Positions 4,771-44,700 of a DNA stretch of 64,000 nucleotides are shown here, one piece after another. Positions within the stretch are counted from its first letter, which is position 1. Each line of letters opens with the position of its first letter. The notes under the pieces were generated by a model. The model saw only the letters and a list, made by a program, of their open reading frames with translations. It ran no database searches and was not told the DNA's origin. Made by a program: the position numbers and the translations under genes. The stretch is from Sulfolobus sp. E5-1-F (GTDB taxonomy: Archaea > Thermoproteota > Thermoprotei_A > Sulfolobales > Sulfolobaceae): NCBI RefSeq assembly GCF_009601705.1, contig NZ_CP045687.1, forward strand, positions 966,630 to 1,030,629, read 5' to 3'.

Positions 4771-5068
4771 AAATATTTCTGTTCCTTCCACAACCTAAAC
4801 TGGTATCTTTTGTGTGGAAGGGGATTTTACGTAGTTTTAGGGTTAACCTAATACCCCGTATGTTGAGGGTTTTGAAGGTGGATATTCCTTAAAAACAAGG
4901 GAAATTTCAACATTTATAAACCTTAAAGGGTAAGAGAACTTCTTGATAAAATCACCTTAGGCAGTCATCTAGAGAAACTTTCTTCTTTCTACTTAAGATA
5001 CAATATTTTAAAAAGGAAATAAAATAAATATTATGTCTAACTTCTGAGTAAATCTTTAAACTATTGAA

Positions 5069-5152
5069 GTTGAATAGGATAATATAATGATGTTGTTTTT
5101 AATGCTTTTAGTACATACCGAGAGTCAGTGAGGTTGAATAGGATAATATAAT
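5069..5152. repeat. Two-repeat CRISPR-like pair, 64-bp register
   Basis: GTTGAATAGGATAATATAAT occurs exactly at 5069-5088 and 5133-5152, separated by 44 bp of unrelated sequence. A few more bases match to the left (GAAG/GAGG). Repeat length and 64-bp period match the A2-A6 units, but the sequence matches none of their repeats. MITE copy 2 begins at the end of the second repeat. Confidence 0.5.
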
Positions 5153-18438: not shown

Positions 18439-18452
18439 AGATAATAAACATT

Positions 18453-18539
18453 ATTCCACTATATAGGAGATATACATAATAGAAAAGTTGACCAACTAAT
18501 GGACTTCCCTTGGGAATATTCCACTCTATAGGAGATATA
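18453..18539 (-). promoter_or_regulatory. Duplicated cas10 promoter element, 65-bp register
   Basis: ATTCCACTATATAGGAGATA at 18453 and ATTCCACTCTATAGGAGATA at 18518 are near-identical (22 bp, one change) and 65 bp apart. On the minus strand they contain CTATATAG, a plausible TATA box for cas10. The repeat length and spacing equal one CRISPR unit, so this may be an off-target spacer insertion that duplicated the promoter. Confidence 0.5.
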
Positions 18540-18632
18540 GCGAGAGGATTAAAAGATAAGAGAAACACCTTCAACTTTCTCAAGAATTTATCAAGAATAT
18601 AGGTTCAGTTTATATAATTAAAAGTTCTCATT

Positions 18633-21533
<2,901 letters not shown>

Positions 21534-24156: not shown

Positions 24157-24427
24157 TTTGCTATGTGAAGAGGGGTAATACAACACATAATATAATGGGT
24201 TATAACAAAAGTTGCTCAGTGAATTAGGGTAGTACGTGCTGGTTCTGCGGTAGATCTCTGGGTCCATAATTATAGTTGCTCAGTGAATTAGGGTAGTACA
24301 TATGAAATTGATTTTGTAGTTGTTTCTAACACCTATTCTGTTGCTCAGTGAATTAGGGTAATACAACAGTTTGGCAAAAATATTTATGAAAGAGCATGAG
24401 TCCGTTGCTTAGTGAATTAGGGTATAC
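24157..24427. CRISPR. Small CRISPR-like array with a novel repeat
   Basis: Repeats of 24-25 nt that start GTTGCTCAGTGAATTAGG and end GTAGTAC or variants: 24211-24235, 24275-24299, 24340-24364 and 24404-24427, plus a diverged one at 24157-24181. Spacers are 29, 39, 40 and 39 nt and unrelated to each other. Unit size equals that of A2-A6, but the repeat resembles neither repeat family of the big arrays. No leader like theirs adjoins it. The repeat nearest the coiled-coil gene abuts that gene's TATA box (24435-24445). Confidence 0.75.
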
Positions 24428-24465
24428 ACAAATCTTTATATATTTCCTTTTTCTGAGTGGTACTT

Positions 24466-25005: not shown

Positions 25006-25449
25006 TTGACCTTGAAAAATGAACTTTTCGCATTTGTACTAAATCGTTTTCTACAGTTTTAGGCCACTTGCTACTTTCCTCTATAATACCTTATTTCTCC
25101 TTTTCTGTTTGTTTTATCTATAAAAATTATATAAATTTCTTCATAAATTTTCATATACATTATTCATTCTCTTCTTCTATTGGATAGCAGGTTAACCAAT
25201 TCTCACTAGCTCTTCACATTTTTTGTTCTATAGGATGTAGAGCATAAAGCAACTTCACTTGTTTGCATTATTCCTCGGATATGAGGAAGAGCGTTGGTCT
25301 TCATATATATTATCTTGCAATTGAAGGTTGGGGATATTAAGGTAAAAAATCTGCCAGAATACTTGGCCACTTTGAGGCGTAATCTGTTGATTTGAATATT
25401 AAGGAAAATCCTATACCACTTAACGTTAGAAGAAGAATTAATTACCCTA
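25006..25449. other. Intergenic gap after the coiled-coil gene
   Basis: AT-rich, with no credible frame. TTCTATTGGAT near 25176 and TTCTATAGGAT near 25226 are similar but too short to call a repeat. Confidence 0.35.
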
Positions 25450-25687
25450 TAGTAGTATCCTGGAAATGACGTATACTATATTAACGTTTAATTTTTCCTA
25501 GATAAGATAAGGTGTATTTATCAATGTATGATTAAAGATTGAAATGGCAATGGTTTGGTTTTGTTGGTCTCTTTAGTATTTATCAATGTATGATTGAACC
25601 ACTTACGATTACTTAAATCTCCTTGACGAGAAGTTATTTTGTTATTTAAGGTTTAAGTGATTTCAAGTAAATTTACGTAAAGTACTA
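25450..25687 (+). mobile_element. MITE copy 4 with a 6-bp target duplication and an internal insertion
   Basis: Ends TAGTAGTATCCTGGAAATGA and AATTTACGTAAAGTACTA. ACCCTA flanks it on both sides (25444-25449 and 25688-25693), an exact 6-bp target-site duplication. It is about 238 bp instead of about 160 because 62 bp with a 20-bp duplication lie inside at 25514-25595. Confidence 0.75.
25514..25595. repeat. Direct repeat flanking a 42-bp insert inside MITE 4
   Basis: GTATTTATCAATGTATGATT is present at 25514-25533 and 25576-25595, with 42 unrelated bases between. Other MITE copies have this region once, so the 62 bp were gained here. A 20-bp duplication around a spacer-sized insert is what Cas1-Cas2 integration produces. 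Confidence 0.65.
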
Positions 25688-25770
25688 ACCCTATTAGATT
25701 TCAGCTAGAGTCAAACCCTTAGCAATGGTAAATAAATTAATGATTTGAATGAAAACCTCCAATCCATGAG

Positions 25771-25859
25771 CGTTTCAGAAGAGAAGTGAATTGCGTGAGA
25801 TGGATATTTTTGCCCATTTATGGGATACAGTAACCTTTCTCAAAGAGAAGTGAATTGCA
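25771..25859. repeat. Two-repeat CRISPR-like pair
   Basis: The 25-mers at 25771 and 25835 share AGAGAAGTGAATTGC at their right ends and partial matches on the left, 64 bp apart. A weaker third trace (GAGGAAAAGAAGTGCG) lies near 25892. The sequence is unlike any array repeat here. Confidence 0.45.
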
Positions 25860-25939: not shown

Positions 25940-26226
25940 AAAGAACCTCTTATAGAACTAAAAGTGTAATGATGTAATTTTGGGGAAAATTTTTGAAAAG
26001 TTGAAGAACATGCCATTGAACTAAAAGAAGTATTAGCTGGCCAATTTTCCTAAATTTGAGAGAAGAGTGTGTACATATATGCTATAGAACTAAAAGGCCC
26101 ATGGGGCTGGCGAATGCTAACAGACGCTAGGACGCTGTATAAATGATATAGAACTAAAAGTTGAAGTTTTCCTTTTCTTGGTTAGGATTTCAGACGTTTC
26201 ACGTATACATGCTATAGAACTAAAAG
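25940..26226 (+). CRISPR. Degenerate CRISPR-like array, repeats ending ATAGAACTAAAAG
   Basis: Five repeat ends at 25964, 26027, 26096, 26160 and 26226 (spacing 63, 69, 64, 66). The best copies read ATGCTATAGAACTAAAAG and the others differ by a few bases. The inter-repeat sequences are unrelated. From memory, Sulfolobus solfataricus arrays use repeats ending TATAGAATTGAAAG, so this may be a decayed array of that family, or an independent one. No leader like that of A2-A6 is attached. Confidence 0.65.
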
Positions 26227-27557: not shown

Positions 27558-28115
27558 TTAATCCACATAAGCCAAATTTCCCTTTATCTTAGGTCTACAG
27601 AAAGTGTAAAACCCACAATTATAACACTTCCTCGCATCTTGAACAACTTTCACTCTACCATTCATAGCCTCCCTTATCTTACTTAAAACACCCTCAACAT
27701 ATCTTCTCTCAGCGTAATTGTAATTTAACCTAACGATTTCCTTCAGACTCACATAATATATCAACCCTTCCTTTACATTAATCCCATTCATATCCATTAG
27801 GTAAAGGTAATATTTCATTTGCAACTTATGATCATACCTCTTCCTCCCACTCTTAACGTCAAGGGGAACCCAATAATTAGGGTAAGTCAGTACGTAATCC
27901 GGAGAGCCGATCAAATCCTTATACCTAAAAATAGGTTTCCCAATAATATTTAATGGCCTTAAAGTAGCGTATAGAAAGTTCATAACCTTATCCTTTTCAA
28001 CTCTCTCCCCCTCGATCATAGCCTCACTAACCCTCTCAGCAAACCCCATGCTCTCAAGTCTCACTATTTGAGGACAATACGCAAAGTGCTTTATTGTAAT
28101 ACCACTTATCGTCAT
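27558..28115 (-). CDS. cas4: Cas4 nuclease of the I-A adaptation module
   Basis: A 185-aa Fe-S nuclease that trims prespacer ends before Cas1-Cas2 integration. Seen: an N-terminal Cys in FAYCPQIVRLE; the nuclease core GSPDYV...WVPLDVKSG with Asp and the D-x-K pair; QMKYYLYLM as the Q-x3-Y motif; and a C-terminal CYNCGFYTFC cluster completing the Fe-S site. Unlike the Cas4 at 5559-6053, the catalytic set is intact. It lies 13 bp downstream of csa1 in the same unit. cas1-cas2 are not adjacent but 11 kb away, so the usual csa1-cas1-cas2-cas4 cluster is split by array A4 and the interference genes. Confidence 0.92.
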   Translation of the reverse strand: MTISGITIKHFAYCPQIVRLESMGFAERVSEAMIEGERVEKDKVMNFLYATLRPLNIIGKPIFRYKDLIGSPDYVLTYPNYWVPLDVKSGRKRYDHKLQMKYYLYLMDMNGINVKEGLIYYVSLKEIVRLNYNYAERRYVEGVLSKIREAMNGRVKVVQDARKCYNCGFYTFCRPKIKGNLAYVD

Positions 28116-28128
28116 TACCCATCACAAA

Positions 28129-29004
28129 TTAGGGATGACAAACACGGTAAAACATACAATCCCTTTCACAATCCTTAGCTATTCCAGGGTCAATCCCCTT
28201 ATCCATTATGTCTTGAGCCTTATCCCTCATATCTAAAAACTCACTCCTAATGGCATCAGAAATGGGAACCAACTTACAATTACTCCTCACATCCCTATCT
28301 GTCACATTAACGTAACACAGATACCCGTAATCTATCGGTATCTCATACTGACTCTCGATCGCTAAAGCGTATCCAGCTAGAGACAACTCATGAGCATACC
28401 TATACTTACCAGTCTTCATCTCAGCTATTAATGGAAGATGAGGAACAAAGGCGTCAACCCTCAAATTGGTTAAACCCAAAAACGAACCATCTACTGGGAA
28501 CTCAACGTAAAAAGGAACAACTTGTGAAACTAAGGAATCCCTAGTCAAGTTAGTAAACCTACTCCTAACCCTATCCAATTCGGCAGAGTAAATATTAGTA
28601 ATGTGATCCCACAAAACCTTAGCGTATTTAGCATCCTCATCCTTCAAGTCCTTAAGTAAAGAGTAAAACTCATCACCCATCAACGTCCTCAGAGTACTCC
28701 CATCAATACCATCCTTAGAGTAAATCAACCGCTTAACAGTTTCCACACCAAAAGCGTAAACCATGTGAATAAGCGAACCTTGAAGAATTTGCTTACCTAT
28801 ATCCCCCTTAAATCCCTTCACTTTAAGGTAAATATTCCTCAAAGTACTGCAGTAATTTAGGTCAGAAACAGAAACCTGAGAAAGAGACCTAGTGTAAACC
28901 GGTGGTTCATTCCAATTCCATCCCCTTAACTCCTCATCCACATTCTTCGGCAACTTCTTAAGTCTCTTCGACAGCAACAATATATCCGAATAAGTAAAGA
29001 ACAC
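28129..29004 (-). CDS. csa1: Csa1, Cas4-like adaptation protein of type I-A
   Basis: Csa1 is an archaeal Cas4-related Fe-S nuclease needed, with Cas1, Cas2 and Cas4, for spacer acquisition in Sulfolobales. The 291-aa protein starts MFFTYSDILLLSKRLKKL at a GTG (29004), followed by GWNWNEPPVYTRS, a family hallmark. Nuclease residues: LRVDAFVPHLPLIAEMKTGK (Asp and E-M-K). Cysteines: one in LNYCSTLR, and CERDCMFYRVC at the C-terminus. On the minus strand TTTATAAATAG (29034-29046) provides a TATA box about 30-40 bases before the GTG. In related hosts this promoter is controlled by Csa3a, which is not in the window. Confidence 0.93.
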   Translation of the reverse strand: MFFTYSDILLLSKRLKKLPKNVDEELRGWNWNEPPVYTRSLSQVSVSDLNYCSTLRNIYLKVKGFKGDIGKQILQGSLIHMVYAFGVETVKRLIYSKDGIDGSTLRTLMGDEFYSLLKDLKDEDAKYAKVLWDHITNIYSAELDRVRSRFTNLTRDSLVSQVVPFYVEFPVDGSFLGLTNLRVDAFVPHLPLIAEMKTGKYRYAHELSLAGYALAIESQYEIPIDYGYLCYVNVTDRDVRSNCKLVPISDAIRSEFLDMRDKAQDIMDKGIDPGIAKDCERDCMFYRVCHP

Positions 29005-33415: not shown

Positions 33416-33707
33416 CATAAGAGTGATCATTCTAAGCCTGTTAATCCATATGGGTTCGCATTTAGAACAATTAACTCTATGCTTAAAATTCAGCCTGCTT
33501 ACTGAAAAGTCCAATACATTGCTATTTCTGGCTTTAAGAAATTTAGGCAATTGAGAAACTACAAGTTAAAGAGGATTGCTAATGATAGCAGCTTACTCCT
33601 TGGTTTGATGACGAGATCGGTGATCAACACTAAAGGAGGAAGAAGTGAATATTTTCATACTCCAGTATATAAGCACTTAATTTTGTCAAGGATTGGATCT
33701 AACTAAC
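33416..33707 (+). pseudogene. Short broken gene of unknown family
   Basis: A frame with one internal stop reads FHKSDHSKPVNPYGFAFR ... KIQPAY-stop-KVQYIAISGFKKFRQLRN ... NTKGGRSEYFHTPVYKH and ends in TAA at about 33707. The composition is protein-like over about 95 codons, so it is probably the remnant of a real gene, perhaps from a mobile element. I do not recognise the family. Its 3' end contains the first repeat of the 33652-33740 pair. Confidence 0.4.
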
Positions 33708-33740
33708 TATTCTCGTCTTTCATACTCCAGTGTATACGCA
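33652..33740. repeat. Two-repeat CRISPR-like pair, 66-bp register
   Basis: TTTCATACTCCAGTATATAA (33652) and TTTCATACTCCAGTGTATAC (33718) form 23-bp repeats with two changes, 66 bp apart, around a spacer-sized insert. The first copy is coding sequence of the remnant gene (FHTPVYKH); the second lies after its stop. Confidence 0.5.
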
Positions 33741-39842: not shown

Positions 39843-41046
<1,204 letters not shown>

Positions 41047-41067
41047 AGGTAAATTTGTTATCACCAA

Positions 41068-41726: not shown

Positions 41727-44700
41727 CTTTCAATTCCTTTGTGGATTTATCTAAGATAACATTAGATATATACCAACAAAATGTAAATATCTTTCAATTC
41801 CTTTGTGGATTTATCATTGATAAAAAAGAGATTGTCTTTATAGTTTAAGATATTCCTTTCAATTCCTTTGTGGATTTATCGGCATTAATGAGCTTCCAAG
41901 GTTGTTAGCAACATTTTGTGCACTTTCAATTCCTTTGTGGATTTATCGTTTTTATGATGCTGTGGCGCTTGACACAACAGTAACAAGAGCTTTCAATTCC
42001 TTTGTGGATTTATCAGGGATAACAGCCACAACAAAAGACAGCAATAATGAGACACTTTCAATTCCTTTGTGGATTTATCGCTATTGATGCTAGCGGACCT
42101 AAAAATAAAAAGTTAATCTTTCAATTCCTTTGTGGATTTATCACCATTAACGTATCTGTCACTGGAAGATTGGAATAACTTTGTCAACCTTTCAATTCCT
42201 TTGTGGATTTATCACCGAGGCACCCAGTTATGCCAATTTAGTATATGACGCTCTTTCAATTCCTTTGTGGATTTATCGTAACTTGATGGAAAAAATCCAG
42301 GTGATAGACAATGAGCTTTCAATTCCTTTGTGGATTTATCACGTGTTGTTGCCAATAATAAGGGAAGAATATAAAAAGTCTTTCAATTCCTTTGTGGATT
42401 TATCCGAAACATATATTTCAAACTATGAATTATACTATAGAATTACTTTCAATTCCTTTGTGGATTTATCAAAATCCGAAAATCGAGATAGAACTAGACC
42501 CGAAAGAGACTTTCAATTCCTTTGTGGATTTATCTCTTTTGGAAACTTGTTCAGAGATAAGCCTGTATCTCTTAAACTTTCAATTCCTTTGTGGATTTAT
42601 CATGACGTTTTGTATGATGGTGTGAATGTTGTAAAGCGTTCTTTCAATTCCTTTGTGGATTTATCAGTATCTTAGAGCTGGAGTTGCCGAATTTCTACGC
42701 AAACTTTCAATTCCTTTGTGGATTTATCCTATAAAGGGTAGAATAAGGTTTAAAAGGAATGAAGACCCCTTTCAATTCCTTTGTGGATTTATCCGTCACT
42801 TTCGCTGTAATGTCTGCACTTCCCGTCATTTCTTTCAATTCCTTTGTGGATTTATCTGTTGAATTTTTAGCTAGTGAGTTAAATGCTGAGATTGTAGTCT
42901 TTCAATTCCTTTGTGGATTTATCAGCAATATTGAATAATCGCCTAAGGCTTATCTTGAAGTTCTTTCAATTCCTTTGTGGATTTATCCGGCTAGACTGAA
43001 AGTAAAAAAAAAATTGGACCGCAAAAACGCTTTCAATTCCTTTGTGGATTTATCCGAATATATTCTAGCAAAAAAACTTACGCAAATATATTCGCTTTCA
43101 ATTCCTTTGTGGATTTATCAGAAAATCGTTATGATGGAGGATGGTGTGCATGAAGACCTTTCAATTCCTTTGTGGATTTATCATACATATTTAAATATTT
43201 CTAAAAAACCAAGAAAGATCTTTCAATTCCTTTGTGGATTTATCATACTAAATTGGCATACGATGGTGCCTCAGTGTAATATCCTTTCAATTCCTTTGTG
43301 GATTTATCTATTTGTCAGGTAAGTCATTATAATCAACAAGATTATCTCTTTCAATTCCTTTGTGGATTTATCTTGTACTTGAACTTAGTATCAACTGATG
43401 TAAAAGTCTTTCAATTCCTTTGTGGATTTATCAACGGTTGTCTCACTGGCGTAAACATATAGAAGTTTAAGATTCTTTCAATTCCTTTGTGGATTTATCA
43501 AAAAATTAAAGTTTGGAACTTGCTTTTTGCGTAAAAAGCTTTCAATTCCTTTGTGGATTTATCAAAAAATTAAAGTTTGGAACTTGCTTTTTGCGTAAAA
43601 AGCTTTCAATTCCTTTGTGGATTTATCAGTACCCAAATTTTAACTGAAGATAAGTCAGAGGTATACTTTCAATTCCTTTGTGGATTTATCAAAGCCGTTG
43701 TAGGCTCAGTACCCTCGGCTACAGCGTCATCTTTCAATTCCTTTGTGGATTTATCTTTGGTTGCCGTATTTGAAATCTGTTATTGTAAGTTACTTTCAAT
43801 TCCTTTGTGGATTTATCGAAATGGGGTGGGTTTGCGAAACAAGCCTCAACAGTATCGCTTTCAATTCCTTTGTGGATTTATCTTGATAATAAAAGTTTTA
43901 CAGCAAGAGTAGAAACGATAACTTTCAATTCCTTTGTGGATTTATCAGTCTTGACGTTTGCTAATGGATTTGGAGGAGGTAGTGGTTTCTCTTTCAATTC
44001 CTTTGTGGATTTATCTTAACTCACCATACTCCCGCTAGCTTTTGCCCTACATTATATCTTTCAATTCCTTTGTGGATTTATCTAAAAAACGCTAACTAGC
44101 ACTGACGCTAAGCCAAACTTTCAATTCCTTTGTGGATTTATCTTTACGCTCCGCAGAATTTCCAACAAGTCCTAGCTGAGATCTTTCAATTCCTTTGTGG
44201 ATTTATCACAAACCACCCTTGATTTGGTGATGGTGGGAATGATGTACTTTCAATTCCTTTGTGGATTTATCCAAAGGATGGGAAACTGAGTGCCGTGGGG
44301 GGCCTTTTCTTGGCTTTCAATTCCTTTGTGGATTTATCCGACATAATAGTACAAGCCACTGGTATTCCTAAAGGCTTCTTTCAATTCCTTTGTGGATTTA
44401 TCGTACCACCCAAGTAAACACTGTCTCCGCTAAAACTACTCTTTCAATTCCTTTGTGGATTTATCGTATTTGGGCGATAAAGTAGTAATTTTAGGTCAGT
44501 CTTCTTTCAATTCCTTTGTGGATTTATCCAAAGGCTATTCCTTTCTTCATGATTAAGAGGATTGATAACTTTCAATTCCTTTGTGGATTTATCTTGCGAT
44601 TTTATGAAACTGATGAGGAAATAGAACTGTATCTTTCAATTCCTTTGTGGATTTATCAATATTCATGGAAGAAAGTCTACGCTATATAACCATAACTTTC

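Follow-up and report, generated by a model that had tools for sequence, protein, structure and literature searches.

Off-target spacer integration as the probable origin of a spacer-sized insertion in a Sulfolobus MITE, with similar scars around the CRISPR loci

What placed 62 additional base pairs inside one MITE copy of the hot-spring archaeon Sulfolobus sp. E5-1-F, and has the same process left traces elsewhere in this genome? The element, MITE copy 4, lies in the 64-kb stretch of DNA analyzed here in full (referred to as the window), which also contains CRISPR arrays and cas genes (Table 1). The original prediction attributed the extra DNA to an off-target integration event by Cas1-Cas2 and regarded it as the cleanest case in the window of a single such event.

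Table 1. Coordinates of the MITE insertion, other scars, arrays and cas genes in the window; genome positions are given for scars at the CRISPR period
Feature	Position in window	Genome position	Strand	Description
Scar	5065-5152	971694		24-bp duplication with 1 mismatch, spacing 64, insert 40 bp; abuts left end of another MITE copy
Scar	18452-18539	985081		23-bp duplication with 1 mismatch, spacing 65, insert 42 bp; adjoins array at 18632
Mini-array	24210-24428	990839		four 25-bp repeats GTTGCTCAGTGAATTAGGGTAGTAC (last degenerate) and three spacers
MITE copy 4	25450-25687			238 bp (176 bp plus 62-bp event); target duplication ACCCTA at 25444-25449 and 25688-25693
Left copy of duplicated target	25514-25533	992143 (MITE scar)	+	20 bp exact; 23 bp, to 25536, with one mismatch
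Spacer-sized insert in MITE	25534-25575			42 bp (39 bp if the duplication is 23 bp)
Right copy of duplicated target	25576-25595		+	
Weaker candidate scar	25779-25858	992408		16-bp exact duplication, spacing 64
Decayed five-repeat array	25941-26226			repeats related to 24-bp GCTAATC class
cas4	27561-28115		-	PF01930
csa1	28132-29004		-	PF06023; Cas4-type exonuclease, type I-A adaptation modules
Scar	33653-33740	1000282		23-bp duplication with 2 mismatches, spacing 65, insert 42 bp
cas2	39846-40136		-	PF09827
cas1	40147-41067		-	PF01867, TIGR00287

The insertion within MITE copy 4

Examination of the element revealed that its ends and the 6-bp target duplication around it are intact, as originally predicted, and that the 20-mer GTATTTATCAATGTATGATT is present in two exact copies flanking the 42-bp sequence AAAGATTGAAATGGCAATGGTTTGGTTTTGTTGGTCTCTTTA. 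No third site for this 20-mer was found in the 64-kb window at up to 3 mismatches, where 0.04 sites are expected by chance. The predicted duplication length of 20 bp holds for exact identity, but the duplication may span 23 bp if one G/A mismatch is allowed (the left copy reads GATTAAA and the right copy GATTGAA). Both letters are found at this position among the aligned MITE copies.

A genome-wide search with the MITE as the query returned 68 matching pieces. In a multiple alignment of copies from inside and outside the window, 28 other MITE copies cross the insertion site with a single target and without the insert, which bears out the prediction that the remaining copies lack the duplication and confirms the empty site on the scale of the genome. 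Therefore, the 62 bp (the 42-bp insert plus the duplicated 20 bp) represent a later insertion into the MITE. One of the 28 aligned copies (at 1,400,370) hosts a different insertion of CRISPR type elsewhere in the element (22 bp with one mismatch, spacing 58). The MITE family thus contains more than one such structure, but site and insert differ from case to case. The orthologous site of MITE copy 4 in relatives was not found among 30 genomes.

The dimensions of the event (spacing 62, insert 39 to 42 bp) lie inside the range of the canonical arrays, in which the spacers are mostly 33 to 44 bp and the repeats 24 or 25 bp in length; the exact target duplication, at 20 bp (23 bp with one mismatch), is shorter than these repeats. 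Viruses, plasmids and the host had been named as possible sources of the insert, and searches of the own genome, the genus, phages and plasmids, together with two 19-mer scans of viral contigs, gave no match to the 42 bp. As a control, a native array of 45 repeats was likewise found to have no match in the phage collection; hence the missing foreign match is expected and carries no weight.

Scars around the native CRISPR loci

The native repeats measure 24 or 25 bp; the spacer modes are 39 to 41 bp in two classes and 34 to 36 bp in the third, which adjoins type I-D genes (csc1 and csc2) together with a cas1 gene at 951605. Native arrays that share the repeat end GAATTGAAAG all fall between 929 and 1,024 kb. 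Three cas1 genes are found in the same zone as the arrays and the scars described below, one of them accompanied by cas2 and cas4 in the window. Two irregularities were observed within the arrays of the window: a run of ~60 T at 18911-18973, either an assembly artefact or real, replaces a repeat end and a spacer, and at 43474-43627 two adjacent spacers share one sequence (AAAAAATTAAAGTTTGGAACTTGCTTTTTGCGTAAAAAG), which marks a duplicated unit of the array. A lone near-intact CRISPR repeat (2 mismatches, no partner) was seen at genome position 884522, ~45 kb from the closest array.

Direct-repeat pairs were sought in non-array DNA, in 863 kb at first and then in 1.24 Mb (about half of the genome), to which the counts given here refer. 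In the window, most direct-repeat pairs have a spacing of 62 to 66. Pairs at the CRISPR period (58 to 65) sit at 908 to 1,001 kb, no more than ~100 kb from native arrays, with hardly any elsewhere in the 1.24 Mb; the only scar accepted outside this zone is that in the MITE copy at 1,400,370. Specifically, ~12 to 15 scars of the same kind as the MITE insertion surround the CRISPR loci, and scars at the CRISPR period were recorded at genome positions 908158, 908987, 915316, 920065, 933900, 934506 and 952424/952497 outside the window, in addition to those listed with a genome position in Table 1. Thus, the predicted insertion structure is real, but it has counterparts of the same kind in this genome and is no isolated case.

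With a strict threshold (20/22 matches), the zone, comprising ~80 kb of non-array DNA, contained 9 non-array pairs or clusters with a spacing of 56 to 67 and 1 with another spacing (a harmonic of the mini-array), in comparison with 2 and 11, respectively, in the 1,120 kb outside; one of these 2 (1168769) lies inside a longer coding-type repeat. The difference between zone and outside (Fisher test, P = 6e-4) is descriptive, since the threshold and the zone were fixed after the first results were known. Markov simulations of the zone sequence yielded 0 pairs in 20 runs. The duplications are mostly 22 to 26 bp long, several of them exact (23, 24 and 26 bp), and mutually unrelated in sequence, while the periods fall into two groups, 58 to 61 and 62 to 65. 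Likeness of the target sites to the canonical repeats was not above chance, either for the MITE site (P = 0.89) or for all sites together (z = 1.25).

Individual scars differ in their setting. The scar at 933900 is found at the 3′ end of a gene for a regulator, which on inspection looks csa3-like and whose homologue in the congener G002 carries the sequence as a single copy. At 952424-952577, beside the type I-D cas1 gene, two scars overlap with shifted duplications (spacings 61 and 58), as if the site had been hit twice. A candidate at 1078511 (a 16-bp pair with spacing 64) was dropped, because the sequence between its two copies is shared with a sister genome and is hence ancestral. Many further direct-repeat pairs of coding type, with spacings that are multiples of three, were also set aside.

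The CRISPR zones of six congeners were scanned for scars as well. Two single scars were detected in G002 (24 bp exact and 25 bp exact, both with spacing 62), three in G004 and at least two in G003; none was found in the CRISPR zones of G001 and G006 or in a 100-kb control stretch of G002. The first G002 scar, an exact 24-bp duplication around 38 bp, is located in a multicopy element, and two other copies of this element in the same genome, nearly identical there, carry the site once. This scar, rather than that of MITE copy 4, is the cleanest demonstration of the event.

Sources of the inserts and the mini-array

The repeat of the mini-array has no exact match elsewhere in the species-level genome collection. 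Its spacer 2 (24300-24339) is a 40/40 copy of part of a thiolase-like host gene (120,669-120,708) with both borders exact and the flank TCC, and its spacer 3 matches a membrane-protein gene at 1,181,290 over the full length (~34/39) with the flank TCT. Thus, two of the three spacers derive from the host, and the TCN flanks of both have the same orientation. Sources were also traced for two single scars: the 933900 insert matches a gene resembling that of the CO-dehydrogenase small subunit (171,479) from end to end (35/38; flank CCA), and the 908158 insert matches a permease gene at 1,202,462 (~29/35 with one gap; flank GTG) and also has matches in three congeners. The names of these source genes were read from their translations.

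The PAMs expected here, which we take to be TCN for the 25-bp class, CCN for the 24-bp GCTAATC class and GTN for the third class, are carried over from S. solfataricus and S. islandicus. At all four traced sources (mini-array spacers 2 and 3, 933900 and 908158), the flank fits the PAM of the class, as far as class PAMs inferred from other species apply. The probability of four such fits by chance is 8.6e-5 with the classes fixed beforehand and 0.005 if any of the three PAMs is accepted at either end. PAMs of the types CCN, TCN or GTN have been reported for Sulfolobales adaptation modules (PMC4390879, PMC3839810).

The inserts at 908987 and 915316 (35 to 36 bp) contain 24 and ~19 bases of CRISPR repeat, respectively, and part of a spacer in addition; array DNA would seem to have served as the prespacer in these cases. 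The 908987 scar overlaps the start of a ParA-like gene. For the 952497 insert, a 19-mer common to four viral contigs was considered as a sign of a viral source and rejected as a chance match, since identity collapses beyond it (22-23/35). As for the canonical arrays, none of 458 spacers matches the non-zone host sample over 75% of its length, and a comparison of one array of 79 repeats with the whole chromosome gave matches in CRISPR regions only.

Origin of the scars and relation to known systems

The best explanation of the MITE scar is, with high probability, off-target spacer integration, and we infer that Cas1-Cas2 itself was its maker. Points against this reading are the short exact duplication (20 bp), the absence of a source match for the insert and the lack of likeness between the target and the canonical repeats, a likeness that has been reported as a tendency of off-target sites and is no defining trait. 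Cas1-Cas2 loaded with a processed prespacer of ~40 bp would attack the MITE in place of a CRISPR array, the two prespacer ends would be joined to opposite strands about one repeat length apart, and gap filling would duplicate the target, giving the order target-insert-target. Non-specific integration in vitro has been reported for the Cas1 of S. islandicus, on which Csa3a acts as a restraint (PMC9456107), and in other systems the position of the second site is set by a ruler (PMC6895254), which would explain a constant duplication length without sequence similarity. Beyond the insertion itself, the originally proposed mechanism is supported by ~12 similar scars, by the scars of sister species, by the PAMs at four sources and by the three cas1 genes.

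Some inserts copy distant host DNA, as templated filler can, and the scars could on this account stem from repair, either of a staggered break with long overhangs, filled in with fragment capture, or of strand slippage with templated filler. Repair should produce broad lengths and no clustering, whereas the lengths observed are narrowly at CRISPR values, the scars cluster at CRISPR loci and PAMs accompany 4/4 traced sources; we consider a repair origin of the MITE scar very unlikely.

The MITE scar is positioned among arrays, and the decayed five-repeat array, which is an ordinary remnant and not an off-target event, begins only ~250 bp away. This location would suit a remnant of a canonical array, reduced by recombination or decay to a single spacer between two repeats. 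Such a reading is possible for the scars at 18452 and 25779, the former of which is partly repeat-like (P = 0.05) and could be a decayed repeat pair, and part of the scar class (these two and perhaps others) may indeed be decayed arrays. At the MITE scar it is contradicted by the empty site: the supposed repeats are MITE sequence, found once in each of the 28 other copies and unlike any repeat class, so that descent from an array is scarcely credible there. It is similarly hard to believe that a tiny mobile element inserted itself and made a target duplication of unusual length: the two ends of the insert do form, on an ambiguous reading, a 6-bp inverted pair (TAAAGA/TCTTTA, one base being borrowed from the target), but no second copy of the 42 bp exists in the genome or genus, and the inserts of other scars are mutually unrelated, several of them being pieces of ordinary genes.

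If off-target integration is accepted, the scars provide natural and precise before/after pairs for spacer integration outside arrays, with multicopy elements serving as neutral landing pads. The inserts are seemingly not purged in the way that self-targeting spacers are, and they may therefore offer a view of captures before selection. The scars suggest that the machinery of immune memory also writes at wrong places and can start new arrays, and they bear on how arrays with new repeats may begin; the mini-array seems to have grown from an off-target site. Their clustering at native loci raises the question of whether the integrase is active near where it is made or loaded. As a tentative synthesis, it is quite possible that Cas1-Cas2 in this genus mis-integrates often and locally (within ~100 kb of arrays), using host genes and CRISPR DNA, that the scars form an unfiltered record of capture, not selected against like self-targeting spacers, and that some of them develop into new arrays whose repeat is private, in which case the mini-array would be CRISPR genesis in progress.

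Off-target spacer integration by Cas1-Cas2 in vivo was reportedly described in 2018 by Nivala, Shipman and Church, who are said to have listed putative natural examples from Yersinia pestis and Sulfolobus islandicus. Those cases are reportedly, like the scars described here, single spacer-sized inserts with a duplication of about repeat length outside arrays; they differ from the present set in that we find empty sites in multicopy elements, many scars in one genome, clustering near native loci, inserts derived from host genes and CRISPR DNA, and a mini-array with three spacers. Casposons resemble the scars in their Cas1-family integrase chemistry and in duplicating the target, but they have terminal inverted repeats and a large cargo, neither of which is present at the MITE scar, and their target duplications are shorter (about 14 to 15 bp). 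A further article cites Nivala et al. 2018 on off-target integration in vivo (PMC11687729). In vitro work on the type II-A Cas1-Cas2 (PMC6895254) and the S. islandicus Cas1 (PMC9456107) agrees with our observations in that off-array integration is intrinsic to the integrase. Those were test-tube reactions, many of them probably half-site, whereas the events described here were completed in a genome; furthermore, the sites used by the type II-A enzyme were similar to the leader-repeat junction (PMC6895254), whereas the sites found here are unlike the repeat. Off-target integration as such is therefore already known, and what seems newer is the number and clustering of the scars, the empty sites in multicopy elements, the origin of inserts from host and CRISPR DNA, and the mini-array.
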